Source: a virus. Taken from it: a DNA stretch of 20,093 nucleotides. A program made the position numbers and the translations under genes. The notes beneath the pieces were generated by a model, which saw only the letters and a list, made by a program, of their open reading frames with translations, was not told where the DNA came from and did no database searches. Below are positions 1,742 to 18,727 of this stretch, piece after piece (position 1 is the stretch's first letter; each line of letters begins with the position of its first letter). The stretch covers positions 1 to 20,093 of the IMG/VR virus record IMGVR_UViG_3300024346_003214. The stretch is one strand, 5' to 3'.

Positions 1742-2414
1742 TTTCAATCTCTTCAATTAACATATCACGCATTTGTTGTGCCTGCGCATCTTCAGGGTTA
1801 TCTACACTACCATTATTCACAAACTTATATGCAAGTGTAATGCGTTGACACTCTGTGTATGCGGCGTGCCAACAGTGTAGGTCTTCTTCATGACCCGCAC
1901 CGAAATAATAGTGACGACACTGCCATCCAGGCACATCTGGTATTTTTACAATCTCGTCGTTCTTCTTGTCATAGTACTCAAAGAAACCGTCTCCGGTCTC
2001 TGACCACGTAAACAAGACTTGGTACGCATTGGCATCAAAGTTAGTATGCCAACCCACAAAACCGCCTGGCGGATAGTAAGATAGTAGAGCGGACGTATGT
2101 GCGCCAAGTTCTGACGCAAAGTCATATTTGACCTTTTGCATAAATCCACCCCACATCTCTTTATCTTCACGCACCATCTTTGAAATCGGTTGTGCGAAGT
2201 ATCTATCGGGCGGGCCAACCAGACCATCACGACCGCGAGACAAACAGTCTTCGAGGTACTCACGAGATGTGTAGTACGACCCCAAGTCTACATCCTTGCG
2301 TTCGTGGTAGGTCCAATACTTTTCGTCGTTGTACGACGGTTTAGACAGCATCTCATCTGAGAAACTGTTAAGAGTCTCTAACAACCCTTTATTACGAATT
2401 ACTACTTCAGTCAT
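1731..2414 (-). CDS. 2-oxoglutarate/Fe(II) oxygenase-like protein
   Basis: A 227-aa protein with the look of a double-stranded beta-helix dioxygenase. YYPPGGFVGWHTNFDANAY (113-131) resembles the first metal-ligand strand, FTWSETGDGFFEYYD (135-149) the central strands, and CWHAAYTECQRITLAYKF (181-198) the distal His183 and the Arg191 that would bind 2-oxoglutarate. The expected HxD reads H123-T-N125, with Asp127 two residues later, so the acidic ligand may be displaced or absent as in aspartyl/asparaginyl hydroxylases. Such enzymes hydroxylate proteins, nucleobases or small molecules; the substrate is not evident. The AbrB-like gene ends 8 bp inside its start and the next gene starts before its end. 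Fold moderately likely; activity uncertain. Confidence 0.6.
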   Translation of the reverse strand: MTEVVIRNKGLLETLNSFSDEMLSKPSYNDEKYWTYHERKDVDLGSYYTSREYLEDCLSRGRDGLVGPPDRYFAQPISKMVREDKEMWGGFMQKVKYDFASELGAHTSALLSYYPPGGFVGWHTNFDANAYQVLFTWSETGDGFFEYYDKKNDEIVKIPDVPGWQCRHYYFGAGHEEDLHCWHAAYTECQRITLAYKFVNNGSVDNPEDAQAQQMRDMLIEEIENEE

Positions 2415-2610
2415 TACTTTTATTGCTACGATGAATGATCATGGAGTATCTATCTCCAATCTGTTGTTTGAAAGAAACAGTATCTCCTTCTTTCAAGCTA
2501 AGTTGATCAAATAGTCTATTCGGTATTTCAAAAGCAAGATCGCCTTCTAATACTGTAGGTACTACATTACAATTAAAAATAGTATTATCTTTCTTCATTG
2601 ATACGTTCAT
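2407..2610 (-). CDS. AbrB/MazE-like swapped-hairpin protein
   Basis: A protein of 67 aa (63 aa if it starts at the second ATG, 2598). The segment LAFEIPNRLFDQLSLKEGDTVSFKQ is typical of AbrB/MazE/SpoVT DNA-binding hairpins, whose consensus has I-P-x-x-L, then LxxGDxV, and which act as homodimeric transcription regulators or antitoxins. There is no adjacent toxin gene, so an antitoxin role is not supported; a phage regulator or nucleic-acid-binding protein is more plausible. Neither start has a clear Shine-Dalgarno sequence, which fits translational coupling from the preceding membrane-protein gene (overlap of 14-26 bp). It overlaps the oxygenase-like gene by 8 bp. Confidence 0.6.
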   Translation of the reverse strand: MNVSMKKDNTIFNCNVVPTVLEGDLAFEIPNRLFDQLSLKEGDTVSFKQQIGDRYSMIIHRSNKSND

Positions 2611-2764
2611 TTACTTTATGGAGATCTTCTGGAGTGCATACTCCGTTATTTATTAAGAATATAAGAGTAGACTCAATTCCGTTCTGTTTACCTAGCATTT
2701 GTCCCACTTTGTAAAAAGAATACAGAAGCGACATTGCAAGTGCGGTGTGTATCCATGGATCCAT
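2585..2764 (-). CDS. Small single-pass membrane protein, unknown
   Basis: A 59-aa protein starting at ATG 2764, chosen because GGGAGAG lies 5 nt upstream; the longer open frame to 2848 would run deep inside gp41 and adds no recognisable sequence. Residues 4-24 (WIHTALAMSLLYSFYKVGQML) form one hydrophobic helix, followed by a soluble tail with ESTLIFLINNGVCTPEDLHKVNERI that is probably helical. It starts 10 nt after the gp41 stop, and its end overlaps the AbrB-like gene. I do not recognise the family. Membrane topology is inferred from hydrophobicity only. Confidence 0.65.
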   Translation of the reverse strand: MDPWIHTALAMSLLYSFYKVGQMLGKQNGIESTLIFLINNGVCTPEDLHKVNERINEER

Positions 2765-2774
2765 TATACTCTCC

Positions 2775-4169
2775 CTATAGAGTAAAGTCGGCGAAACGTT
2801 CTGTATTGATTCGCTGACCGGAGTTTGAGTTATCAAAGGCTGGTCCATTATCTACTTCTTTATTTAGGGGTGAGTCGTTTTGATCAACGTCAAATAATCT
2901 CATCTTAGCACGGTCAATACCCACGACAAATCTCTGGTATGTATTCAAATCATTATATCGATTCTTTAACTGTTTCACTAGGATCTGGTTGTTCGCTTTG
3001 AGTTCGTCGTTGGAGATAAGTGCGAACATGAAGTCTGCGGTTGCGGGTAGTCCAAAAGACTCGGACGTATCTTCCAACCCCACGTCATCATTAGTGAAAC
3101 CAGAACGAGTCGTCTGCGTTGCAGACACGATCGGCACGTCGAATTCCACGGCAAGACCACGTAACTCTTCAGCAATAGACTTGATATACGAATACGAGTT
3201 AATAGCACCACCCATCCCCTTCATACGTGCACTCGCACAGATATTCAAATAATCAATGAAGATCATATCTGGCACGAATTGCTTTTTAAGTTTCAGTTCA
3301 TTCAGTAACGCACGAAAGTGGTTAGCGTGTGCACTGCCCGTAGGGTATTCTTTGATGATCAGTTTACCAGTCGTTTTCTCTGCAATACTCTGAACACGAT
3401 TAGAAAACATATCTTTACTCAGATGTTCTAACTGGTCGATAGGAACATTCAACAGATTTGCGTCTATACGCTCGGCGATGCGTTCTTCTGCCATCTCCAT
3501 AGTAATATACAAAACATTTTTACCTTGCGACAGAGACGCACCAGCGCAGTGACACATGAACAACGACTTACCGACACCTGTACCTGCGAGTGCGATATTG
3601 AGAGTCTTGTTTGGTAGACCGCCCTTGGTAATACGATTAAAATAGTCTAAATCAAATCCAATACGTTCTTCATCTAGATGATAAAAGTCCCAACGAGAAT
3701 CAATATTCTCTAGATAATCGTGACCAATGTTGGCGTCAAAAGAAACACCAAGTGCCTTGGACAATATATCTGGAATTGCGTTCTTAGTAAGTGTTTTATT
3801 CTTACCATCAAGAATACCAATCGACTCCATGACTGCGTTAAACACTGCACGATCTTGACACCACTTCTCAGTGCGATCAACTAACCATTCAGAATCTTCT
3901 GCACGGTAATTGAAGATGTCTGGAAGTATCTCCATTGCGTGACGATATTGATCATCTGATAATTTATCTTCAGAATCAATTTCAATTTTAAACGCTTCGA
4001 GCGTAGGCAGTTTGTTAAACTTCGCGATGTAGGATGTAAATTCTTTAAAGAGACCATTGTAGGTCCCTTCAAAGTAATCGGGTGAGAGAAAGGCGGCAAC
4101 CTTTCTCATGTAAGAATCGTTAGTCAGTAGATTCCGTAGAATCGTTTGCTGTAGATTGATCTCTGTCAT
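2775..4169 (-). CDS. 41: Replicative DNA helicase (T4 gp41-like, DnaB family)
   Basis: A 464-aa protein, near T4 gp41 (475 aa). It has an N-terminal helical domain (about 1-150), then a RecA-type helicase core with Walker A AGTGVGKS (195-202), a TMEMAEERIAERID segment (223-236), Walker B near MIFIDYLNI (about 300) and a downstream Q-rich VSATQTTRSG motif. gp41 is the hexameric 5'-3' helicase that unwinds the fork and works with a primase. The ATG at 4169 follows GAGAAG and overlaps the preceding 120-aa gene by 50 bp. The C-terminus is acidic and Ser/Asn-rich. It belongs to the long operon that includes uvsX. Confident assignment. Confidence 0.95.
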   Translation of the reverse strand: MTEINLQQTILRNLLTNDSYMRKVAAFLSPDYFEGTYNGLFKEFTSYIAKFNKLPTLEAFKIEIDSEDKLSDDQYRHAMEILPDIFNYRAEDSEWLVDRTEKWCQDRAVFNAVMESIGILDGKNKTLTKNAIPDILSKALGVSFDANIGHDYLENIDSRWDFYHLDEERIGFDLDYFNRITKGGLPNKTLNIALAGTGVGKSLFMCHCAGASLSQGKNVLYITMEMAEERIAERIDANLLNVPIDQLEHLSKDMFSNRVQSIAEKTTGKLIIKEYPTGSAHANHFRALLNELKLKKQFVPDMIFIDYLNICASARMKGMGGAINSYSYIKSIAEELRGLAVEFDVPIVSATQTTRSGFTNDDVGLEDTSESFGLPATADFMFALISNDELKANNQILVKQLKNRYNDLNTYQRFVVGIDRAKMRLFDVDQNDSPLNKEVDNGPAFDNSNSGQRINTERFADFTL

Positions 4170-4482
4170 TTACTTCTCGCGATTTAATAGTTTTATCTTC
4201 AATTGCAGAGGCTAAAATATCTTGAAGCACCTCCGCAGCGAATTTCTGCATATCTAAATTGTCAAGTGTATTTTCTGGATTTTTATTCTCTAAGACATCA
4301 AAGTTAAACTTTAGCATACCTTCTGTGCCATCTAACTGAACATTATTATATCTAATGGTCACATCTTCATATGGCGATCTTAGAAAACTGACATTCCAGA
4401 ATTCATTACCTTGTGTATCATACGCTGAAATTAACTCGTAGTCAAGATGTTCAGACGGTTTGTCTAGATTTAGTTCACTCAT
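4120..4482 (-). CDS. Conserved-looking protein between uvsX and gp41, unknown
   Basis: A 120-aa acidic protein with no motif I recognise. The N-terminal two thirds (about 10-70) alternates in a beta-like pattern (ELISAYDTQGNEFWNVSFL, VTIRYNNVQLDG, LKFNFDVLE). A helical stretch AAEVLQDILASAIE follows, and the tail is Ser/Thr/Asp-rich and probably disordered. It overlaps uvsX by 4 bp (ATGA) and gp41 by 50 bp, so it is translationally locked between recombinase and helicase; this suggests a recombination-dependent replication accessory, though that is only context. Marine T4-like phages often have a hypothetical gene in this slot. Confidence 0.8.
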   Translation of the reverse strand: MSELNLDKPSEHLDYELISAYDTQGNEFWNVSFLRSPYEDVTIRYNNVQLDGTEGMLKFNFDVLENKNPENTLDNLDMQKFAAEVLQDILASAIEDKTIKSREVNDRDQSTANDSTESTD

Positions 4483-5534
4483 GCTTCCTCCATCTCAGTG
4501 ATTAGTTCCGCATTCAACTCGCTGGCATAACCAATTTTATAGGTTTTTTGCAAAAAGTCTGCGAAGTTAGTTGTTTCAAAAATAGGTTCCCAGAACTCTG
4601 CGTTCAAGGTGTCTTTGGTGCGAACTTTAGTACCGACCATTTCACCCGTAGACGTGTCAACTTTCTGATACCATCCATTAGAAGGTTTCGCGACATATCC
4701 ACCAAGAAGTGCGACATCAAGAAGACCAGAGTACTTCTGCACTCCACCTTCCCACGAGACGCCAATCGGGATCTTAGACTTCTCTTTGACATATCGGGAC
4801 TTCTCTACGTTGATCACAAAGTCATAACCAACGATCTCAGTACCCTGCTTCTCTTGACGACGACCGATGATCCAGATGTTGTCGGCAGAGTAATAGATAC
4901 CAGTACCACCACTAACTACATCTTTTGGAAACAGACCAATCTCTTTATAAGTGTGATTGATTGCAAGCATCGGAATGTTCTTCATCGCAAGGTATGGTGT
5001 TGACATACGGAACAGACCTTTCAGTGCCTTAGCACGTGACATGTCTGCGACACCCTTCTCGTTCAGTGCATCTTCCAGTTCTTTCTTAGACGCAAGGTTA
5101 CCGATAGAGTCAATCACGATAATGACATCATCTTCACGGTCTAGCTGCTCTAACTGGTTGATCATATCAAACTTCAGTTCTTCGACATTTGCGATCGGTG
5201 TGTGTAACACACGACTCGTGTCAATACCGAACTGTTCAAAGTAAGACTGTGGTGAACCAAACTCTGAGTCATAAAACAACATGACTGCGTCTGGTTTTGC
5301 GTTAAGATATGCACCCGCCATAAGTAATGCGAATGATGTCTTAAAGTGTTTCGATGGTCCAGCGAGGACAGTCAGTCCAGGTGTCACACCACCATCGACA
5401 GATCCCGACAACGCGACGTTTACCATCGGAACGTCGGTCGGTACCATATCTTTTTCAGTGAAGAACTTACTAGTGGAAAGTGTCGCCGTCTCCTTTATCT
5501 TCGAGTTCTTCTTCAGTTTGTCCATTATCGACAT
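4479..5534 (-). CDS. uvsX: RecA-like recombinase UvsX
   Basis: A 351-aa protein matching T4 UvsX (about 390 aa). Walker A is GPSKHFKTS (59-67), of the UvsX-specific GPSKxFK type rather than bacterial GPESSGKT. Walker B is in VIIVIDSIGNLASKKE (about 136-151). UvsX forms filaments on ssDNA for strand exchange, repair and recombination-dependent replication, normally with UvsY and Gp32 encoded elsewhere. ATG 5534 is chosen because a perfect GGAGG lies 5 nt upstream; the in-frame TTG at 5546 lies in that Shine-Dalgarno site. The start sits 65 bp inside the end of the UDP-sugar dehydrogenase gene in another frame. The 120-aa unknown follows with an ATGA overlap. Confident. Confidence 0.95.
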   Translation of the reverse strand: MSIMDKLKKNSKIKETATLSTSKFFTEKDMVPTDVPMVNVALSGSVDGGVTPGLTVLAGPSKHFKTSFALLMAGAYLNAKPDAVMLFYDSEFGSPQSYFEQFGIDTSRVLHTPIANVEELKFDMINQLEQLDREDDVIIVIDSIGNLASKKELEDALNEKGVADMSRAKALKGLFRMSTPYLAMKNIPMLAINHTYKEIGLFPKDVVSGGTGIYYSADNIWIIGRRQEKQGTEIVGYDFVINVEKSRYVKEKSKIPIGVSWEGGVQKYSGLLDVALLGGYVAKPSNGWYQKVDTSTGEMVGTKVRTKDTLNAEFWEPIFETTNFADFLQKTYKIGYASELNAELITEMEEA

Positions 5535-6453
5535 TTTTGCCTCCAAAATCTACAAATGTAATGTTATTAACTTTTTCACGTTCATCGAGGTCATATTGTA
5601 CACGATAATCACTATTGATGTCAAGTACTCTCTCTAATAAATCAAATGAATGATCGTTACCCTCATTATCTTCAAACGTAGAGAATCGCAAGAATGCCTT
5701 TGTGTCTTTAGGCAGACACGCACCACCAAACCCACGTTTACCATCAAACCCTGGAACACGAGTGTGACCCAAACCAACACGATCATCTTTACCAGCAGCT
5801 CGTACTACAGTATTGTAATTACAACCATACATGTTAATCAGATCATATAACTGGTTGAAGAACGTGATCTTGGTCGATAGGAATGAGTTGATTGTGTATT
5901 TCACAAACGACGCTTCGTATGCAGTCATGCGGTGATAGTCGTTTGACTCACAAGCACTAAAGATTTCATACACATCAATAACTTCCGCAACTGCTTGAGG
6001 AGTGCCACCGATGACGTGAAACTTTGCAGAGACGAAATCCGATTTAGCATTTTTCTCTGTCAAAAACTCAGGGTTATAAGCAAAACGATCTATCTGTTCT
6101 TTCGTAAGTTGTTGATAGATTCTGTCAATCGCATCTGGTGTGATAGTTGACTTAATAATCACGAGAGCGTCTGTCTCATGTAAACACTTAAGTGCACTCT
6201 CTTCAACAATAGAAGAATTGACAGAACCATCGTCATTCGAAGGTGTCGGTGCACAGATAAAGAAACACGTCGGAGTCTCATCAAGTGTTTTATAGGACAA
6301 GTCGTCTAGACTTGTATTGTGTTTTGGATCAAATAGTGCAAAGTCAACTATAGGATGCATGAACGCATATTCTACAGCTTGACCGACAAATCCGTGACCC
6401 ACAATACCTATTAAAAATCTTACAGATTCGCCATTTTGCATTTTTCTAGACAT
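5470..6453 (-). CDS. UDP-glucose/GDP-mannose dehydrogenase family, lacking the C-terminal domain
   Basis: A 327-aa protein. The N-terminal Rossmann NAD site is IVGHGFVGQA (17-26), the catalytic loop is ICAPTPSNDDGSV, the central helix has Lys185 in ASFVKYTINSF, and the catalytic Cys246 is in GFGGACLPKD (241-250). These enzymes oxidise a UDP-hexose C6 alcohol to the uronic acid in two NAD-dependent steps. Family members are usually about 390-450 aa with a third, UDP-binding domain; here the sequence ends soon after the catalytic cysteine and finishes in an acidic tail (TEEELEDKGDGD). It either works as a compact form or has altered substrate use. Its ATG overlaps the epimerase stop by one base and its last 65 bp overlap uvsX. 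Substrate specificity cannot be read. Confidence 0.85.
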   Translation of the reverse strand: MSRKMQNGESVRFLIGIVGHGFVGQAVEYAFMHPIVDFALFDPKHNTSLDDLSYKTLDETPTCFFICAPTPSNDDGSVNSSIVEESALKCLHETDALVIIKSTITPDAIDRIYQQLTKEQIDRFAYNPEFLTEKNAKSDFVSAKFHVIGGTPQAVAEVIDVYEIFSACESNDYHRMTAYEASFVKYTINSFLSTKITFFNQLYDLINMYGCNYNTVVRAAGKDDRVGLGHTRVPGFDGKRGFGGACLPKDTKAFLRFSTFEDNEGNDHSFDLLERVLDINSDYRVQYDLDEREKVNNITFVDFGGKNVDNGQTEEELEDKGDGDTFH

Positions 6454-7395: not shown

Positions 7396-8340
7396 TTATC
7401 CATTCCTGTAAATATATTCTAATGCTCGATCTGCTTCTACATGAAGAGGTCGATTCTCATACCAATTACCTGTTTCGAGATCAAACTCTCGACACAGTTC
7501 TTCTATTTGTCTAGAGGTAATTGGGTACCCTCTAGAGTATGCGTTACCTGCAATCGCAACCGCAATGCGATACATCTTCGAATACCAACCAGTTCCACTG
7601 ATCATCTGATACTCTATCGCAAGTTTCTTTGGCCAAAATGGACAATCACGATATGATGACCATTTAAAGTCGGTATTATTTAGGCTGCTCTTGCGATGTT
7701 GTATTACAGCTTGCTGCAACTCAATAGGCAGCTTGTCCAGAAAAGCATTACCTGTTTTCTCATGATATGGATGTTTCGCAATCAACTCTGAAACATTCAT
7801 GGGAGACCCACCAGAGTTTACCATAAAGAAAGAGTATGCGTTGGGGTACTGCGCAGGTACGTAGTACATACGTGCAAGATCTTTCGTCTGTGGGTCACCC
7901 AGATCACCGAGTTCTGTATTGAGTGCATACCAAAATGATTTGATTCGAGTGTTTTCAACATTCTCATCCAGACGGAATACGATTCTAAATTTTAGATGAT
8001 CTTCTGTACTACTTGCTGTGTTGTAGACGACATAGTCATACTGACCATATTGACTTTGTAACCAAGTTCTTAGGGATTCTATATCAGTGCAACCGTCAAT
8101 AGGATCATCCACATCAACGCAACACCAAGAACTCCAATAAAGAACAGATCGATTACTACGCGTCGTACCCACGTCGAACACAGCAGGAGTAAGAAGAGGA
8201 GAACTATTGGATCCACCTTTCTCTCCAGGTTTAGTGTAAGAATCACGAAGACACATCACGAAGTCCGTCCACGACATAAACGTCGTACGGCGATGAGTCT
8301 TGTTATCAAACTGGTTTTTGAATAGAGTTAATTCATACAT
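7396..8340 (-). CDS. Putative primase-like replication protein (archaeo-eukaryotic primase-type motifs)
   Basis: A 314-aa protein. CCVDVDD (73-79) offers a DxD metal-binding pair. YNTASSTEDHLKFRIVFRL (106-124) resembles the motif-II region of AEP/PrimPol and plasmid RepB'-like primases, which ends in a His and an R-[VI]-V strand. DLARMYYVPAQ (154-164) resembles motif III. The C-terminal half, with WYSKMYRIAVAIAGNAYSRGYPIT, looks like the helical PriCT-type domain that follows such cores. A primase between polymerase and helicase genes makes contextual sense, but T4 gp61 is a DnaG/TOPRIM-type primase, so this would be a different family. The start at 8340 sits 7 nt downstream of a consensus -10 with no Shine-Dalgarno. 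Gene reality is high; the functional call is tentative. Confidence 0.55.
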   Translation of the reverse strand: MYELTLFKNQFDNKTHRRTTFMSWTDFVMCLRDSYTKPGEKGGSNSSPLLTPAVFDVGTTRSNRSVLYWSSWCCVDVDDPIDGCTDIESLRTWLQSQYGQYDYVVYNTASSTEDHLKFRIVFRLDENVENTRIKSFWYALNTELGDLGDPQTKDLARMYYVPAQYPNAYSFFMVNSGGSPMNVSELIAKHPYHEKTGNAFLDKLPIELQQAVIQHRKSSLNNTDFKWSSYRDCPFWPKKLAIEYQMISGTGWYSKMYRIAVAIAGNAYSRGYPITSRQIEELCREFDLETGNWYENRPLHVEADRALEYIYRNG

Positions 8341-8347
8341 GGGACGT

Positions 8348-8377
8348 ATTATACCACATGTTGAGTGCGTTTGTCAA
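8348..8377 (-). promoter_or_regulatory. Consensus sigma70 promoter for the primase-to-SGNH operon
   Basis: On the minus strand TTGACA (8377-8372), an 18-nt spacer and TATAAT (8353-8348) match the sigma70 consensus at all 12 positions. The predicted transcript start is near 8341, one base before the ATG at 8340, so the mRNA would be essentially leaderless. The -35 box includes the TGA stop of dam. It is the last clear promoter before the long gene run down to position 1, so it may drive uvsX and gp41. Confidence 0.85.
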
Positions 8378-8394
8378 ACAAAAAATTCTTCAAG
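8372..8394. repeat. 23-nt repeat at the dam 3' end (copy 2)
   Basis: Second copy of the repeat described at 9281-9303, in the same orientation and about 909 bp away, with two mismatches. It covers the last codons of dam, its stop, and the -35 box of the primase-like gene's promoter. Confidence 0.85.
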
Positions 8395-9249
8395 CGTTTG
8401 AGATTCTTCTGTCGGATAATTCCAGATAAGCAACTCTTTCTTCTTATGCTCATTCTCACGATAAGAGGCAGTTGACACCATGGTGTAAGTCAAATCCCAG
8501 ATCTTTTGATTCCAGTTTTTGTATGCTTCTTGTAGAGTGTCATTTGAGTTGTAAGTGATCATGACCATATTACCAGACGCGTCTGTGCATCTAAAGAAAT
8601 CTTTATGATCAAAAGAGTTGTGCATGTCACCATCTTTGCCGTAAATGAAAGTGGCAATATCGTAGGGCGGATCAGCAAATACAAACACATCTGGGTCATC
8701 ACAAAACATAGTAGAGTAATCTTCGTTTGTGATTGTCCAGTTCTGCATAAGTCGCGAATACTTGGGAAGTTTACCAATCAGTCTGTGATGAAAGTGGTCA
8801 AAGCACGAACCTTTAGAGAATGACGCAGATAACTCTGTGAGACCAGAGAATGAACACCGATTGAGAATATAGAATGCCCATGCAGTCTCAAACTCATTCT
8901 TGGGGTTTGCAAGCACGTCTGTCACAACGTGATAATAGTCATAGTGTGCTTGTTTGGTATCAGACGCGCTGAGTAGTTCGTCTTTGATATCGTGAAGTTT
9001 CTGAGTAAGCGCTTCACCTTCTTTCTGCAAAATCAACCAGAAACAATACAGATTATAGTACTTGTCGTTGACTCGCACAGGAATGTTAGGAAACTTTTTA
9101 GTGAATGCAAATGCACAAGATCCACCACCGAGAAACGGTTCACGATATTCTTTGATGTTTTTGACAGGCAGATTCTCACGCGAGAACAGAAAGTCTACTG
9201 CTCGTGACTTGCCACCAGGATATCGTAAAGGTGTTTTTAGATCTTTCAT
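8374..9249 (-). CDS. dam: DNA adenine-N6 methyltransferase (Dam family, D12 class)
   Basis: A 291-aa D12-class methylase. LRYPGGKSRA (8-17) and EPFLGGGS (37-44) form the S-adenosylmethionine pocket; the catalytic DPPY is at 193-196 in VFADPPYDI. Length and order match T4/E. coli Dam, which methylates GATC; target specificity here is unproven, although GATC is common in the window. Likely roles are protection from restriction or marking of phage DNA. The C-terminus, TLEEFFV, resembles the C-terminal clamp-binding tail of gp43 (SLEDFFG here), suggesting attachment to gp45. The ATG at 9249 begins directly before the conserved core and lies 8 nt from a perfect -10, leaving virtually no leader. 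Confident family call; clamp binding is inference. Confidence 0.93.
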   Translation of the reverse strand: MKDLKTPLRYPGGKSRAVDFLFSRENLPVKNIKEYREPFLGGGSCAFAFTKKFPNIPVRVNDKYYNLYCFWLILQKEGEALTQKLHDIKDELLSASDTKQAHYDYYHVVTDVLANPKNEFETAWAFYILNRCSFSGLTELSASFSKGSCFDHFHHRLIGKLPKYSRLMQNWTITNEDYSTMFCDDPDVFVFADPPYDIATFIYGKDGDMHNSFDHKDFFRCTDASGNMVMITYNSNDTLQEAYKNWNQKIWDLTYTMVSTASYRENEHKKKELLIWNYPTEESQTLEEFFV

Positions 9250-9257
9250 AGGTACCT

Positions 9258-9286
9258 ATTATACTACAATTAAATCGGAATGTCAA
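9258..9286 (-). promoter_or_regulatory. Consensus sigma70 promoter for dam
   Basis: On the minus strand TTGACA (9286-9281), 17-nt spacer, TATAAT (9263-9258): a perfect consensus with optimal spacing. The predicted start is near 9251, two bases before the dam ATG at 9249. The TGA stop of gp43 lies inside the -35 box. There is no Shine-Dalgarno between the -10 and the ATG. Confidence 0.87.
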
Positions 9287-9303
9287 CCAAAAAAGTCTTC
9301 AAG
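9281..9303. repeat. 23-nt repeat at the gp43 3' end (copy 1)
   Basis: Positions 9281-9303 and 8372-8394 agree at 21 of 23 bases. Each copy encodes the end of a protein (LEDFF in gp43, LEEFF in Dam), its TGA stop and the -35 hexamer of the next promoter. The two mismatches are at repeat positions 7 and 15. Confidence 0.85.
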
Positions 9304-11760
9304 TGATGCCTGTGGTTCTGATTGCCAACCGACAGCGTCCAAGATAACTACAAGAGGATCTAGAAACGTCTTGTCAAACATCATGTCATAATCAATGTAT
9401 TTGTGAAGACCGAGTTCTGTAGGCAGATTTAGTGGATAGCTGACAACATTCTGACCGAGACGGTTAGGTACTTTGAGATAACAGAACTTGATTTTCTCAC
9501 CCTGCTTTACAGTCTCCACACGATTCTGAAGACCTGCATCTTTGATTGCGGCATTGAAACACAACGCACCACGCACGTGAATAGGAGTACCTTTCTTGAA
9601 GATAGTCTTACGATCTTGCCATTTACCTAGATTTGACACACCGCGTGGAAAAGAGACATCTTCGGGCGGTAGATTTTTGAACTCGTTTTTGAAATTACGA
9701 ATGAACGACTGCGTATCATTTTCAGTGCCTTCAATAATCACACGGAAGATCTCTTTAAATCTGTCGCGAACGACCTGTGGGGTCGACGACTTGATTGCCT
9801 CGATACCCATCATCTTGAGTTTAGGTTCTGCGTACTGGACACCTTCGTTGTTGTGCACGTTCAGGATGTATCGTTTCTTCGCCATCCAGATACCACGGTC
9901 TGCGATGACCTCACGACCCATCTCCATGCGATTAATATAAGCACCAGTCGAAGTCGCCATCTGAGCATAAGACTTATCAAGAGATTTCTCAAAGTGTTCG
10001 CGACAGATCTTATCTAAGAACTTGACAGGATTGTTGGGAGAAAACTTATCTACCAGGTCACCCATGCGAATATACACTGAGTCGGTATCGATTGCGACGA
10101 CATAGTCTTCATCTGTTTTGAGAATGTTTTGCATCTCATTATTTACACACCTCTCTGCCCATTTGATGGCCAGTTGACCTGCCATGGTGATAGACTCGGC
10201 AACACGCTGATCAAAGTATCGAAACCACTTATTACCAAGAGCGCCATAGAGTGAGTTCATTAAGATCTTAATCGCCATCTGTTGGTTGTTAAGTGACGTG
10301 ATCTTATATTGCATCGACTTACTAGGATTGTTCTGATACTCTTGATCTAACTTGAGCATCTTGTCTTTAATAATACGTCGGTCTGCGTAGTAGTGTTCAA
10401 TAATTGTAGGAATCACACCCTTGCGTGTATGAGTGAATCTAACACCAGTAGGTGACAAGGAGTAGTCATCATTATCAGATTTCACGTGACCGTCAAGAAA
10501 CTTTTCTACAGTGATATCAGGAACAATACCATCCATAATAGTCTCGGGCGACATGTTGTACTGCACAATGATGTTCGGATACAGAGAGTTCAAGTCAAAC
10601 GATGTCACCCAGTCATGAGATCCGACTTGAGGATCTTTCACGTAACCACCGGGATACGGAGTCTTGGGTTTCTCTGTCTTGGGCGGAATCACAATCTTTT
10701 GATTGTTTAGCATACGATAGATGATAGAGTCCCAGATCGCAGTCGTACCGAGAGTGTCTGTATAGTTAACACCGCCACGATACGCCATAGTGAGCACCAG
10801 CGAGATTAGGTCTAGCTTCTCATCAATCTTGTGCACCAACTCAACGTCTTTTACGTTGTAGTCTATGAACTTCTGATAGTCTTCTTTGTAGAGAGTGTGC
10901 AGATTACCATGCTCTTCATAAGAGAGTTTTCGCTCGCCAAGAACGACGTGTGCGATGTGATCAAGTCGATACGACTCTTGTTGTCCGAGTGTATTGAGAG
11001 TAAACTTTTTGAAGATCTCAATATAGTCAAGGTGATCAATACCCTCGATAACATATTCTTGGTTCTCACGTCCATTGATCTTCTGAATTCTCTCGCGCAC
11101 GAGACCCCATGGCGACAGACGTTTTACTAACGTGTCATCACCAAACAGTTTATAACAACGATTAACAATGTAAGGAATATCAAAGAAACGTGTGTTCCAT
11201 CCTGTGATAATATCAGGACTGTAAGTTTGCCAATGGTCTACAAACTTGCGAACAAGATCCATCTCATTATCACAACGAATAAACAGAACATCTTCACGAG
11301 AGGGAGTGTAGTCATTGAGACCCCACACCCAGTAGTTGCCATCATTCTTACGAAGGGCGATAGAGATAATTGGATATTTTGCTTCGCGCTGATCTGGAAA
11401 TCCTTCGTCTGACGCAACCTCGATATCGATATTCATCACACGAACTAGATCACGATCAAACTGAATATCATTAGGCCAGTAAGTAGATATAAACTGCGCG
11501 GTGTAATTGTTCTGACCGTGCACTTTAAAGTTGTCAACGTCGCGATATCGCTTCGTGAACTCAGTCGCTTCTTTCATGGTCTCGAACTGCACTTCAACGA
11601 CAGACTGTCCGTCAAGTGTGCGCCACTCAGACTTAGAATCACCACTCACATAAAGTTTTGGTTTGAAAGGAACGCGAGTCTTGATCTGCTGACCGTTCTC
11701 ATAACCGCGATATAAGATGTTGTTGCCGACGTGTCGGACATTTGTATAGAATTTAGTCAT
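9283..11760 (-). CDS. 43: Family B replicative DNA polymerase (T4 gp43)
   Basis: An 825-aa protein, shorter than T4 gp43 (898 aa). The 3'-5' exonuclease motifs are NIDIE (110-114), [13 protein letters not shown] (about 185-197) and YNVKDVELV (about 301-309). The polymerase motifs are [12 protein letters not shown] (387-398, motif A), [13 protein letters not shown] (about 498-510, motif B) and AIDTDSVYI with catalytic DTD (558-560, motif C). The C-terminal SLEDFFG corresponds to the tail of T4 gp43 that binds the gp45 clamp. ATG 11760 is chosen because [15 protein letters not shown] aligns with the T4 N-terminus MKEFYISIETVGNNI; the earlier ATG at 11796 lies within the promoter/terminator. The start is 7 nt from the -10. 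It carries its own promoter rather than following regA directly as in T4. Very confident. Confidence 0.98.
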
Positions 11761-11767
11761 ATGGTGA

Positions 11768-11796
11768 ATTATATAGTAAAAAGGGGTTGTTGTCAA
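11768..11796 (-). promoter_or_regulatory. 43: Consensus sigma70 promoter for gp43, embedded in a terminator
   Basis: On the minus strand TTGACA (11796-11791), 17-nt spacer, TATAAT (11773-11768): perfect consensus. The predicted start is near 11761, one base before the gp43 ATG at 11760. The -35 box lies in the 5' arm and loop of the terminator hairpin that ends the upstream nuclease-like gene, and the spacer contains its 3' arm and U-tract. Confidence 0.87.
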
Positions 11797-11802
11797 CCCC
11801 TT
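11778..11802 (-). terminator. Rho-independent terminator of the DUF262/HNH gene
   Basis: On the minus strand the RNA forms a 9-bp perfect stem AAGGGGUUG/CAACCCCUU with loop ACAA (stem arms 11802-11794 and 11789-11781), followed by UUU, making a run of five U with the stem end. It begins 11 nt after the stop at 11814. The hairpin overlaps the gp43 promoter. Confidence 0.8.
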
Positions 11803-11813
11803 GTAGATTTATA

Positions 11814-13208
11814 TTATGCAGACTTATCAAGATTAAAAATCGATTGATAATCAGTGACGCTAATCGAACCCATCTTTTTATTGTAACATGCTCTCACCAT
11901 CGCTAGGTTGTCATACACGGTACGTCCACCCGCAGTATGTGCAATGATGTGCGCACCTTCTGCTTCTGAGAGTGTAAGAGGCAGACCATCGACGGCGCAG
12001 ACATCACCTTGCTCAACCAACTTAGCAATGCGTTCCTCTCGGCTAAAGAGTCTCGCAGTATCTAGTTGCATGATTGCTTTAGTAAGATTTGCTCGCGCCA
12101 AAATTTGCTCGACAGGAAAACTGACATGCGAGAGAGTATCGTACTCGCCAAGCGAATCCATAACTTGTTGTCCTACAGTCTTACCAGCATCGAACGGGGA
12201 TCGTGCCTGCAACTCTTTAGTCTGACTCTCTAACTTCACACGGAAGGGTGCGAATGCACGATCGATCGATTCAAAGAACTCTCTACGATCGTACGAAAAC
12301 GAACCTAGCTTGTCAGTCAGATGGATGAATAGTCGCGAGTAAAGCGAGAACTCACGAATCGTCAACTTGCGATTCTTTGATGCCGCAACTTTTGACATTT
12401 CATGTACAAAATCCAGAGTCTTCTTGACTTGCTTCGTCAACTTGATCATCGTGTCATTGTCTGGTGACGCATTGTACATCTCTTCGAGATTCTTACGGTT
12501 CATCACACCAAGACCACCGCCATCGAAGAATCGGAAGTAGAGTCGAGCAACCATTTCATCTTGACGTAATCGCTCATTACCGAACATCAGATTCTTAAAC
12601 GTCAACTTACCTTTTTGTGTGGTGTATGATGTGAATAAGGGATGACAGTCGTTCTCTACACCTCTAACAACTCGCGACATCTCACGAATATGCTTTGCAA
12701 CTGGAATACAGTTGTATGAGTTCAACATCTCTTGGTGGTTAACGTCAGTAGTCTTGTTGACCATCTGGAAGATGAATGCAATCTCTTCGGGCGACAAATC
12801 AAAGTACGTGACTATGTTGATGTTGATGTCGAGAAATGCTTTCCTAAACTCCGGGTCGAATTCAGAGAAAAACTTACCCGTGTAGAACTCACGAAACTGA
12901 CCAAAAATAAATGCCCATAGGTAACGAGTGCGGTGACCAGCATCGATGATCTCACTCATTTTCTTTCCGTTGGGTGTTTCATTGAGTATGAACGCACCAC
13001 CAAAGAGACCGCACATGAAACCGTAGATGATGCCTTGTGCTTTCGAAGGTTTGTCTGTGCCTTCTAGTTTGGGTTCTGTGTCGAGACGTTGACCTTCGGG
13101 ATAAACATCAATATCCATATAGTCAATCTGTATAAACTGTCCGATTGTTTTTGTGGTTTGCTTGGGTGCGAAACGATTAAATGCGAAAGGTTGTTGTTGT
13201 AATAACAT
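11814..13208 (-). CDS. DUF262 (ParB/Srx-like) plus HNH nuclease-like protein
   Basis: A 464-aa protein from ATG 13208, chosen for AGGAGAAG 5 nt upstream; the frame is open to 13304, but that extension crosses the promoter. The N-terminal part resembles DUF262: a YPEGQR segment (about 36-41) and EIIDAGHRTRYLWAF (about 86-100), a variant of the DGQQR signature. After a helical middle region, CAVDGLPLTLSEAEGAHIIAH...GRTVYDNLAMV...YNKKMG (404-447) is HNH-like, with His420, Asn434 and Asn443 in plausible positions. This DUF262-HNH layout occurs in GmrSD-type modification-dependent restriction proteins and related defence nucleases, and can use nucleotides. The gene has its own consensus promoter and terminator inside the replication cluster, like an inserted moron. 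It may exclude competing phages or nick host DNA; that is inference. Confidence 0.75.
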   Translation of the reverse strand: MLLQQQPFAFNRFAPKQTTKTIGQFIQIDYMDIDVYPEGQRLDTEPKLEGTDKPSKAQGIIYGFMCGLFGGAFILNETPNGKKMSEIIDAGHRTRYLWAFIFGQFREFYTGKFFSEFDPEFRKAFLDININIVTYFDLSPEEIAFIFQMVNKTTDVNHQEMLNSYNCIPVAKHIREMSRVVRGVENDCHPLFTSYTTQKGKLTFKNLMFGNERLRQDEMVARLYFRFFDGGGLGVMNRKNLEEMYNASPDNDTMIKLTKQVKKTLDFVHEMSKVAASKNRKLTIREFSLYSRLFIHLTDKLGSFSYDRREFFESIDRAFAPFRVKLESQTKELQARSPFDAGKTVGQQVMDSLGEYDTLSHVSFPVEQILARANLTKAIMQLDTARLFSREERIAKLVEQGDVCAVDGLPLTLSEAEGAHIIAHTAGGRTVYDNLAMVRACYNKKMGSISVTDYQSIFNLDKSA

Positions 13209-13292
13209 GGGTACTTCTCCTAATTGTGTGCCATCTATTGGCGGGTTTTGGGAGCATCTATTGCTCATGTGTAACTCGACGTTACGAAAAGA

Positions 13293-13322
13293 ATTATATA
13301 ACAACTAGGGTGTGTTTGTCAA
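13293..13322 (-). promoter_or_regulatory. Consensus sigma70 promoter for the DUF262/HNH gene
   Basis: On the minus strand TTGACA (13322-13317), 18-nt spacer, TATAAT (13298-13293). The predicted start near 13286 gives a leader of about 78 nt with a strong Shine-Dalgarno, unlike the leaderless promoters downstream. CAATAGATG occurs twice in the leader (13240-13232 and 13263-13255). Confidence 0.82.
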
Positions 13323-13331
13323 CACTTTTTG

Positions 13332-13349
13332 AATGTAAATATTTACATT
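13332..13349. promoter_or_regulatory. 18-bp perfect palindrome, possible operator
   Basis: AATGTAAATATTTACATT reads the same on both strands. It lies 9 bp upstream of the -35 box of the DUF262/HNH promoter and touches the stop codon of the glycosyltransferase-like gene. There is no U-tract after it, so it is not a typical terminator; a dimeric regulator site is more plausible. No regulator is identified. Confidence 0.5.
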
Positions 13350-14149
13350 TAGTCAATAACGTGAAAAAAATTGTGGCGCGTCCAAGGGGATTCAATATGT
13401 TTTTCTTTATATCCATGATGATCCTGAGTTACTGCAAGACGTTTCGAAATCAACTGAGTGGTCGGCGTTGGAATTCCTGTCTTATCATGATCCATACGAT
13501 TGAAGTAGATTCCAATATCACGACCAACACCTATAGTATCACAACCATGCCAAGGATGTAAAGCGGTATTTTTGATTCCGTAATAATTAATTTCTGGTAG
13601 TTCTAGATGACGTGTGGTGTATGTTCTGAAAAGACGTTGCAACACACAGTAAGGTCCACAGTTGATAGGAAATGCATTGTTCAGAAGCATGTGATGGGCC
13701 CAGTGCGCAAATCTCTGATCCATGCAATACATACCCATGAACAATCCTATGTTTGCGTAGAGCGTGTTCTCTGCGTACTCAGAGAGTAATTTGAACGCTT
13801 CGTATCGTTCTTCCACTAACCATGTGTCATGTTCCATGATCCAAAACTTTTCTTCTGACTCACCCTGTCGACGCATCAACTCCCAGTGAGAACACATTCC
13901 AGCTTTCTCTGTAGGCGAGTGGTCATCCTTTTCTTTACCAGATAATATGTCTAGAGTCATGAGACTTTTGGACCAAGTGTACTTATCTACATGGTCTTGG
14001 AAGTCTTCTGATTGAGGGGTAATGGCGTCAAAGGTTTCGATGGAGTCGATATAACCTTCGTCAATGGCGCGTTGAAAAGACCAACGAGAGAGTGCTGCGT
14101 ACTCTTCAGATCGTTCGTCTCCTTTCATAACTATTTGTATTGCTTTCAT
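13349..14149 (-). CDS. Glycosyltransferase-like protein
   Basis: A 266-aa protein counted from ATG 14149; an in-frame GTG at 14158 would add three residues but lies at the terminator U-tract. The segment KFWIMEHDTWLVEERY, about residues 100-115, resembles the hydrophobic strand and acidic [ED]xD loop of GT25/GT-A-type glycosyltransferases, where acidic residues bind the metal and nucleotide sugar. Later segments (NIGLFMGMYCMDQ, NAFPINCGPYCVLQR) would fit an acceptor-binding region. The C-terminus is rich in His and Trp. I cannot name donor or acceptor. It follows a terminator at 14159-14185 closely, so expression probably relies on read-through or an unseen promoter. Together with the dehydrogenase and epimerase, a glycan role is plausible. 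Confidence 0.5.
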   Translation of the reverse strand: MKAIQIVMKGDERSEEYAALSRWSFQRAIDEGYIDSIETFDAITPQSEDFQDHVDKYTWSKSLMTLDILSGKEKDDHSPTEKAGMCSHWELMRRQGESEEKFWIMEHDTWLVEERYEAFKLLSEYAENTLYANIGLFMGMYCMDQRFAHWAHHMLLNNAFPINCGPYCVLQRLFRTYTTRHLELPEINYYGIKNTALHPWHGCDTIGVGRDIGIYFNRMDHDKTGIPTPTTQLISKRLAVTQDHHGYKEKHIESPWTRHNFFHVID

Positions 14150-14158
14150 ATCACTCAC

Positions 14159-14193: not shown

Positions 14194-14301
14194 TTACATT
14201 AGTTGTTGTACACAGACGGCTACCACGAATACGCTTGATAGTCCTGCGAACATCCAACCCATCTCTTCTAACCTAGAGTTGGCTCGGGTGTTCTTCTCCA
14301 T
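14194..14301 (-). CDS. 35-aa small membrane protein
   Basis: A short ORF from ATG 14301 to TAA 14194. It has a good ribosome site: GAGGAG about 6 nt before the ATG, lying within the end of hsp20. The protein starts MEKNTRANSRLEEMGWMF and continues with a hydrophobic helix (about 15-32, including FAGLSSVFVVAVCV), giving one transmembrane segment with a charged N-terminus. It overlaps the hsp20 3' end by 29 bp and is followed by a terminator, so it is the last gene of that unit. No family is recognised. The combination of Shine-Dalgarno, coupling, clean stop and membrane character makes it likely to be real. Confidence 0.65.
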   Translation of the reverse strand: MEKNTRANSRLEEMGWMFAGLSSVFVVAVCVQQLM

Positions 14302-14752
14302 TGTTGTTCTCCTCGTTTAAAAGTTGTGGACTTAATATACTAGTCCCATTAATTGCTACTTTACGAGGCTTCTGACTTTCAGGGATTATTACTTCCAATG
14401 AAATGGCTAGTAATCCGTTTCTGAAATCAGCTCCCATTACTTCAACATACTCCGACAGACGGAACTGACGTTCAAATCTTTTCGTCGAAATGCCTTTATG
14501 AATATACTCTCTAGTGTCTAGTACAGACCCTCGAATGCTAAGTGTACGGTTCTTTACTTCGATCTCAAGTTCGTCTTCCGTGAATCCGGCGACTGCTAAC
14601 TCGATTAGGTATTGATCCTCTCCCGTCTTTAGGATGTTATGCGGGGGGAACGTATCACCCGAGTGTCTTGCTACTCTGTCTAGTTCGTCGATCATAGTAT
14701 CAAATCCGACGAATGCTGAACGTGGGAACAGTTGTTTTGCTGTTAATGTCAT
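14273..14752 (-). CDS. hsp20: Small heat-shock protein Hsp20 (IbpA-like)
   Basis: A 159-aa alpha-crystallin-family chaperone. The N-terminal FVGFDTMIDELDRVA resembles IbpA. The crystallin domain spans about 37-130 (YLIELAVAGFTEDELEIEVKNRTLSIRG, then FERQFRLSEYVEVMGADFRNGLLAISLEVIIPE), ending in the A-x-x-x-N-G-x-L segment typical of the fold. A C-terminal SILSPQL could serve as the IxI-type tail anchor. Hsp20 holds unfolding proteins; in marine T4-like phages it is a common gene, possibly aiding capsid assembly or host stress. AAGGAG lies 8 nt before the ATG. A T4-type late promoter is about 67 bp upstream, so late expression is likely. Confident family call. Confidence 0.93.
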   Translation of the reverse strand: MTLTAKQLFPRSAFVGFDTMIDELDRVARHSGDTFPPHNILKTGEDQYLIELAVAGFTEDELEIEVKNRTLSIRGSVLDTREYIHKGISTKRFERQFRLSEYVEVMGADFRNGLLAISLEVIIPESQKPRKVAINGTSILSPQLLNEENNNGEEHPSQL

Positions 14753-18136: not shown

Positions 18137-18727
18137 TCAGTATTCGTCAGCATATCCGTGATTTATTTTAGCATGGTGCATTTCATCACGACGAACACAC
18201 ACGATCATATCAGAGAGCATTGCACCCTCTTGTAAATCTATATAATAGTCAATGGCGATCTGTGGGGCAGGAATATCTTTGATTTCACCTGCCTGAATTA
18301 ATGCCAAGTAACTAGTGTAACTGTTCACTGCCTCTTCTTCAAAATACCCAGTCATTCGGTGTGCAGTGCGAGGGAATAACATATACATTAACAGATAGTA
18401 ATGCCAGAAGATGAACTGGACCAAAATAATCAAAACTCTTTCTAAGATAGAAGGCGAAACAATCTCCATAAAAAACATTAGATGCTTACGTTCATTGGTC
18501 GCCTCATCAAGTAGTTCTTGGATCTTAGTACCATTGCCCTTCTGCAGTCTGCGTAGACTGTACAAGTGCGTTAGCATTCCACCAACCATGCCCGGCACTC
18601 CAGCAACCGTCTCTAAGATGAGAGCGCGTTTGCCATAGTTGCGACCAAAGAAAGTGTCTGCAAAGAATCTAAAGAAAGCGGTCATAGATTTTGCAAATGT
18701 GTCTGATATTTTTGTAGTAATATTCAC
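18137..18727 (-). CDS. aox: Alternative oxidase (ubiquinol oxidase, di-iron)
   Basis: A 196-aa alternative oxidase. The four iron-ligand segments are complete: LETVAGVPGM with Glu39, NERKHL with Glu79 and His82, GYFEEEAVNSYT with Glu130/131, and RRDEMHH with Glu182 and His185. Hydrophobic helices between them (about 40-60 and 96-118) fit a monotopic inner-membrane protein. AOX oxidises ubiquinol and reduces O2 to water without pumping protons. PAPQIAIDYY near 153-162 resembles mitochondrial/proteobacterial AOX rather than plastid terminal oxidase. The start is GTG 18727, with GGA 6 nt upstream; ATG 18685 is a poorer alternative. It begins 14 nt after the tRNA 3' end. N-terminal presequences are absent, and the length is near the family core. 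Confidence 0.93.
   Translation of the reverse strand: MNITTKISDTFAKSMTAFFRFFADTFFGRNYGKRALILETVAGVPGMVGGMLTHLYSLRRLQKGNGTKIQELLDEATNERKHLMFFMEIVSPSILERVLIILVQFIFWHYYLLMYMLFPRTAHRMTGYFEEEAVNSYTSYLALIQAGEIKDIPAPQIAIDYYIDLQEGAMLSDMIVCVRRDEMHHAKINHGYADEY

Follow-up and report, generated by a model that had tools for sequence, protein, structure and literature searches.

The question raised by a 20,093-nucleotide stretch of viral DNA (IMG/VR record IMGVR_UViG_3300024346_003214; hereafter the window) is what a nuclease-like gene is doing immediately upstream of the DNA polymerase gene of a T4-like marine phage. A first-pass annotation, made from the letters of the stretch, had described a DUF262-like protein with a C-terminal HNH block, encoded by a self-contained cassette with the layout of a moron. 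In the GmrSD, BrxU, SspE and DndI enzymes, the DUF262 domain hydrolyses NTP and acts as the sensor, and the HNH domain nicks or cuts DNA.

The gene and its control elements

The gene (P0001; positions 11814–13208, complementary strand) is an intact open reading frame of 464 codons with an AGGAG Shine–Dalgarno sequence and 57 non-redundant homologues. An alternative start at 13268 would extend the protein to 484 residues; the shorter form is preferred because AGGAG lies about 9 nt upstream of its ATG and because it agrees with the N termini of the family. The leader that carries this Shine–Dalgarno sequence before the ATG is about 77 nt long (13209–13286, complementary strand), and its predicted fold as a structured RNA is not unusual (stretch 13160–13290, z = −0.24). 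A second contig from another sample (L005) repeats the gene and its junction with the polymerase gene, with a protein identity of 100%, so an assembly error at this junction is unlikely. The upstream junction is known from the window contig only.

Transcription would start from a σ70-like promoter (13293–13322, complementary strand) that matches the consensus at 12 of 12 positions, with TTGACA at 13322–13317, an 18-nt spacer and TATAAT at 13298–13293. Between this promoter and the stop codon of the upstream gene lies the perfect palindrome ATGTAAATATTTACAT (13333–13348), the sole perfect 16-bp palindrome in the window; with 0.5 expected by chance, it is a weak candidate for an operator. At the other end of the gene, a predicted intrinsic terminator (11781–11802, complementary strand) combines a hairpin with a 9-bp stem (−13.7 kcal/mol, z = −4.3) and a T-rich tail. 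It overlaps the polymerase promoter (11768–11796, complementary strand; 12/12 consensus and conserved in relatives), such that across 11768–11802 the TTGACA −35 box of the latter sits in the hairpin. The consensus promoter, perfect palindrome, leader and terminator listed in the first-pass annotation are, accordingly, all present. However, the private promoter does not by itself single the gene out as a moron: 12/12 promoters also precede the polymerase, D12 adenine methyltransferase and primase-like genes, and because these next three genes each have one, the feature is a local rule and does not mark the gene as foreign.

In these three consecutive genes, TATAAT ends 7–8 nt before the ATG (7 nt for the polymerase) and no Shine–Dalgarno sequence is present (polymerase, 11760–11796; D12 methyltransferase, 9249–9286; primase-like gene, 8340–8377). 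Their mRNAs are predicted to be leaderless, and the layout at the polymerase gene is conserved in relatives. The polymerase itself, T4-like gp43 (9283–11760, complementary strand; phrog_262, 1015 bits), is the downstream neighbour. The upstream neighbour (13349–14158, complementary strand) encodes 269 residues without a family match and directly adjoins the polymerase gene in relatives in which the site is empty. Farther upstream of the insert site is an Hsp20 small heat-shock gene (14273–14752), which many of the examined relatives share, and an alternative oxidase gene (18137–18727; PF01786, E = 6e-68), a respiratory auxiliary gene, lies between gp45 and gp44.

Predicted domain organization

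A Pfam scan of the window protein alone gave no DUF262 match and a sub-threshold HNH match, with no curated score reached; a Lumazine-binding match (E = 0.06) was attributed to chance. Because the single sequence falls below the Pfam thresholds, the domain call rests on structure and on the profiles of relatives found in viral contigs. Among 13 family members scanned, PF01844 HNH was matched with a best E of 4.7e-6, GmrSD_N appeared sub-threshold in two (best E = 0.0034) and DUF1524 in none. The profile search that had been proposed for this protein thus gave a divided answer, in that the window protein reaches neither DUF262 nor DUF1524, but its relatives match HNH and, sub-threshold, GmrSD_N. 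Relatives also matched the PADLOC defence profiles NsnA (best E = 7e-13) and REase_II (best E = 7e-8); a literature search on the name NsnA returned nothing relevant.

An AlphaFold model of the window protein was obtained with a mean pLDDT of 83.5. The solved structure that best matches the whole model (residues 15–464) is BrxU, with a moderate VIA-align Z score of 8.1, and Foldseek also ranked BrxU first (E = 2.4e-3). Among viral models, GmrSD_N proteins match best (E = 1e-10).

Residues 16–155 (12744–13163, complementary strand) probably form an N-terminal ParB-like DUF262 domain, as suggested by VIA-align, the sub-threshold GmrSD_N matches and the NsnA and REase_II profiles of relatives; its VIA-align matches include SspE (6jiv; Z = 7.8, 133 residues aligned) and ParB-N structures (Z of about 7.5). 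Residues 156–375 (12084–12743, complementary strand) are modelled as a helical middle domain, which reached a pLDDT of 93 when folded alone. Its top two VIA-align matches are both to BrxU (residues 245–422, Z = 6.1; residues 245–424, Z = 5.5; 161 aligned) and are colinear with the match of the whole model; Foldseek found nothing significant for this domain alone (best BrxU, E = 1.4), and its match to BrxU there rests on VIA-align. Residues 389–463 (11820–12044, complementary strand) are assigned to a C-terminal HNH domain by structure, profile and conserved residues. This domain superimposes on Cas9-type HNH (Z = 8.0, rmsd 3.3 over 74 residues), matches the Cas9 HNH profile (E = 5e-4) and has the ββα fold and H-N-N/H residues of the HNH (His-Me finger) class.

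Although the fold scores are moderate (Z of 6–8) and depend on predicted models, the modelled order of ParB-like DUF262, helical middle and HNH domains is that of BrxU, a member of the GmrSD family. The architecture read from the sequence at the outset is therefore borne out by homologue profiles and two AlphaFold models. The HNH domain resembles a general or Cas9 type rather than DUF1524, and the N-terminal motif is DGGHRKR (DAGHRTR in the window) rather than DGQQR.

Conserved motifs

Two motifs stand out in the N-terminal domain. In the P-x-G-Q-R motif (residues 37–41; 13086–13100, complementary strand), P37, Q40 and R41 are found in all 57 homologues. The second, DAGHRTR (residues 89–95; 12924–12944, complementary strand), is the counterpart of DGQQR; the family form is DGGHRKR, in which both glutamines are replaced, and the aspartate and arginine are invariant (D89, R93 and R95 in 57/57). 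Together with Q40 and R41, these three are the NTP-type motif residues. The other invariant positions are N151, H420, G427, G428 and N434, of which H420 and N434 are the predicted catalytic residues of the HNH domain, and N443 is kept in 56 of the 57. The window copy is unusual at A90, which no other homologue has, and at T94. In DndI, a DUF262–DUF1524 protein, activity and defence are reduced or lost when alanine replaces the DGQQR arginine or an HNH asparagine (PMC11662687; see also PMC12707154, PMC4619093).

The residue before the HNH histidine is acidic in three of the 57 members and alanine or glycine in 52. In GmrSD enzymes, an acidic residue precedes this histidine. Because that residue is mostly absent from the family, its cleavage chemistry may differ, being either altered or weak.

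The family resembles BrxU and GmrSD in the order of its three domains, its QR and DGxxR-type motifs and its H-N-N residues. It differs from them in having DGGHRKR for DGQQR, in mostly lacking the acidic residue, in giving no Pfam DUF1524 match and in location, the window gene being in a T4-like phage and theirs in a bacterial defence island. With SspE and DndI, phosphorothioate-sensing DUF262–HNH nickases, the window protein shares the DUF262 fold, the two-domain plan and the arginine of the DGxxR motif; by contrast, its C-terminal HNH domain resembles Cas9/GmeHNH, not DUF1524.

Presence and absence upstream of the polymerase gene

In Phage C48C1 (Kyanoviridae), which has the closest complete genome and an 84% identical polymerase, the same two neighbours adjoin with no gene between them. 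A phage-wide search with the window protein (50,697 records) gave no match at E = 1e-5 and two weak ones at E = 10, and C48C1 proved to have no copy elsewhere. The interval upstream of the polymerase gene could be read in 68 relatives. In 38 it measures 34–38 nt, which is the polymerase promoter alone; in the other 30 it is longer, nearly always because other genes occupy it. These observations establish that the nuclease gene is accessory, not core. The gene comes and goes at a fixed site with conserved flanks, as a moron would, and with the site empty in C48C1 and 38 of 68 relatives it is an insert rather than a universal syntenic gene. Placement between conserved genes and absence from close relatives are equally features of free-standing homing endonucleases.

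Other occupants of the slot include a C5-cytosine methyltransferase, a second methyltransferase, an asparagine-synthase-like gene and, in L061, a member of the present family with 37% identity to the window gene. In L021 and L035 (polymerase 88–89% identical), the occupant is a TET-associated glycosyltransferase (PF20691; 5116–5967 in L021). These two contigs, with their occupied slots, also share the D12 methyltransferase allele of the window (8374–9249), to which theirs are 94% identical and those of other close relatives about 65%. By eye, DGxHR-like strings were seen in the occupants of L056 (SGNHR; 2369–3859), L063 (EGQHR; 5039–5947), L067 (DGRTR; 4913–5950), L072 (EFQHR; 3334–4224) and L080 (EYQHR; 5067–5951), and the L056 gene opens with a GIY-YIG-like stretch. 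For these occupants Pfam gave nothing, and the PHROGs matches were all to families without a known function, phrog_5931 among them.

A gene annotated as hypothetical in C48C1 (OQ984149.1, 49583–51001) encodes a Tet_JBP dioxygenase (E = 3e-19), as does L178 (7132–8550). Given the TET/JBP enzyme of C48C1 and the glycosyltransferases in the nearest occupied slots, cytosine-modification genes exist in places in this phage group. A general link between TET-type modification and the nuclease was nonetheless not supported: among 50 family-bearing records no Tet_JBP match exceeded the cut-off, and most of the examined relatives have neither. No partner modification gene was seen to travel with the family.

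Distribution and movement of the family

Family members occur sporadically in T4-like phage contigs, at several different replication-core junctions. Among 56 non-redundant loci, 30 are flanked by a T4-like replication or recombination gene, as against 13 expected and a maximum of 26 in 2000 draws, and one is flanked by a structural gene as against 12 expected; the control used one reference map (C48C1) and treated accessory genes as randomly placed, and part of the bias may reflect a general variability of early regions. The first-pass annotation had taken a T4-core location to be undescribed for such a gene; within this family it is recurrent, not unusual. Several phages have a member immediately downstream of gp43, and other members lie near gp44, gp45 and prim/ugd junctions.

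Cultured phages yielded only distant relatives, a Synechococcus phage Sf-FS3 protein (XYM58844, 'HNH Cas9-type domain'; hhalign E = 7e-20 over 336 columns) and a Vibrio phage QD01 protein (XXJ63241, 'DUF262 superfamily'; tblastn E = 2e-7 to a family member), which show about 21–25% identity and occupy other genomic positions. Two pattern scans of 84,980 bacterial and archaeal genomes found no member, with short-motif patterns that distant bacterial relatives may escape.

In a tree of the family, the window gene falls in a clade of 15 (support 100/100) and the L061 gene (there labelled L129) in the other half, so the gp43-upstream interval was filled twice independently. The window and L061 are 37% identical in the nuclease gene and 75% in the polymerase; for the window and L100 the values are 47% and 44%. 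Elsewhere, the inserts are more alike than the polymerases: 85% versus 70% for L118/L119, 84% versus 66% for L138/L139 and 61% versus 44% for L061/L138. These identities indicate that family genes move horizontally, crossing between lineages to which the polymerases stay confined.

Such movement raises the main rival to a defence-like function, namely a free-standing homing endonuclease of the T4 mob/seg kind, which would recognize DNA through its ParB-like domain, cut insert-free phages within or close to a conserved replication gene and be copied into them by repair. T4 free-standing homing genes are also intergenic, between conserved genes, and those of the HNH type nick (PMC2988022). Like mobA–E of T4, the window gene encodes an HNH nuclease between conserved replication genes and is mobile between phages. 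The placement of the family beside gp43, gp44, gp45 and prim/ugd, its lineage crossing in L118/L119 and L138/L139 and its two acquisitions at one interval would all fit. However, close inserts do not share one target (that of L118 lies beside gp44 and that of its close relative L119 beside gp43), and no conversion tract is evident in the DNA flanking the insert in the window. Moreover, Pfam scans of the window protein and 13 members gave no typical homing DNA-binding module, the protein is colinear with BrxU over its full length, and the invariant NTP-type residues are unneeded by a homing endonuclease; homing genes are not known to carry an NTP-type ParB-like domain. We consider homing unlikely.

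Candidate function

The reading that we place first, and hold with evenly balanced confidence, is that the gene encodes a phage-borne, NTP-gated DNA endonuclease of the BrxU/SspE kind, directed against co-infecting or host DNA, accessory to the phage and spread by recombination. It draws on the structural matches to BrxU and SspE, the GmrSD_N viral models, the defence profiles, the invariant motifs, the mutant data for DndI, the broad cytosine-modification range of BrxU, the absence of the gene from the nearest relatives, its horizontal movement and the presence of cytosine-modification genes in this phage group, and it is favoured over homing because of the conserved NTP-type residues and the full-length match to BrxU. 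Counted against it are the sub-threshold Pfam scores, the moderate Z scores, the alanine or glycine before the HNH histidine, the replaced DGQQR and the lack of a partner gene, together with the fact that homing endonucleases, too, recur beside replication genes.

Mechanistically, we infer that during infection the gene's own promoter would drive expression of the enzyme, whose ParB-like DUF262 domain would bind or hydrolyse NTP and sense some property of the DNA substrate, most likely a base modification or its absence. BrxU cleaves DNA bearing many cytosine modifications (PMC13390438; PMC12707154). The helical middle domain would couple sensing to the HNH domain, which would nick or cut DNA unlike that of the phage itself, whether a plasmid, the chromosome of the host or the genome of a co-infecting phage. 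A role against competing DNA is plausible, and the gene would spread by recombination among T4-like phages into junctions of the replication cluster.

Its position among replication genes and the general ParB-like matches of its N-terminal domain might instead suggest a nuclease of host takeover or DNA metabolism that degrades host DNA or processes phage replication intermediates, its ParB-like domain binding DNA or CTP. However, nearly all close relatives share the replication cluster and lack the gene, which is therefore not needed for replication, and we consider this role distinctly improbable. A recent passenger that has no selected function, was brought by recombination to a junction that is variable in relatives (34–38 nt long in 38 of the 68 readable cases and filled by other genes in the remainder) and bears the unusual A90 and T94 is very improbable given the intact frame, the retained catalytic residues, the gene's own promoter, ribosome-binding site and terminator, its recurrence in L005 and the invariant motifs of 57 diverse homologues.

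The BrxU/SspE-like reading admits a broader form, in which the family is a lineage of BrxU-like NTP-gated nucleases that is native to phages and not to bacteria, spreads among T4-like phages in a homing-like manner via replication genes and serves as a weapon against differently modified co-infecting phages. We regard this form as doubtful; if true, the lineage would combine the traits of a type IV restriction enzyme with those of a homing element.

The DUF262–HNH kind of protein is known; its phage-borne version is new, and its activity putative. GmrSD and BrxU enzymes are bacterial weapons against T4-like phages, and here T4-like phages themselves encode one built on that plan, within the replication cluster and in many aquatic lineages. 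If it is active, phages would use modification-type restriction against one another, and the family would offer a testable case for the spread of a nuclease gene through the most conserved part of the phage genome.
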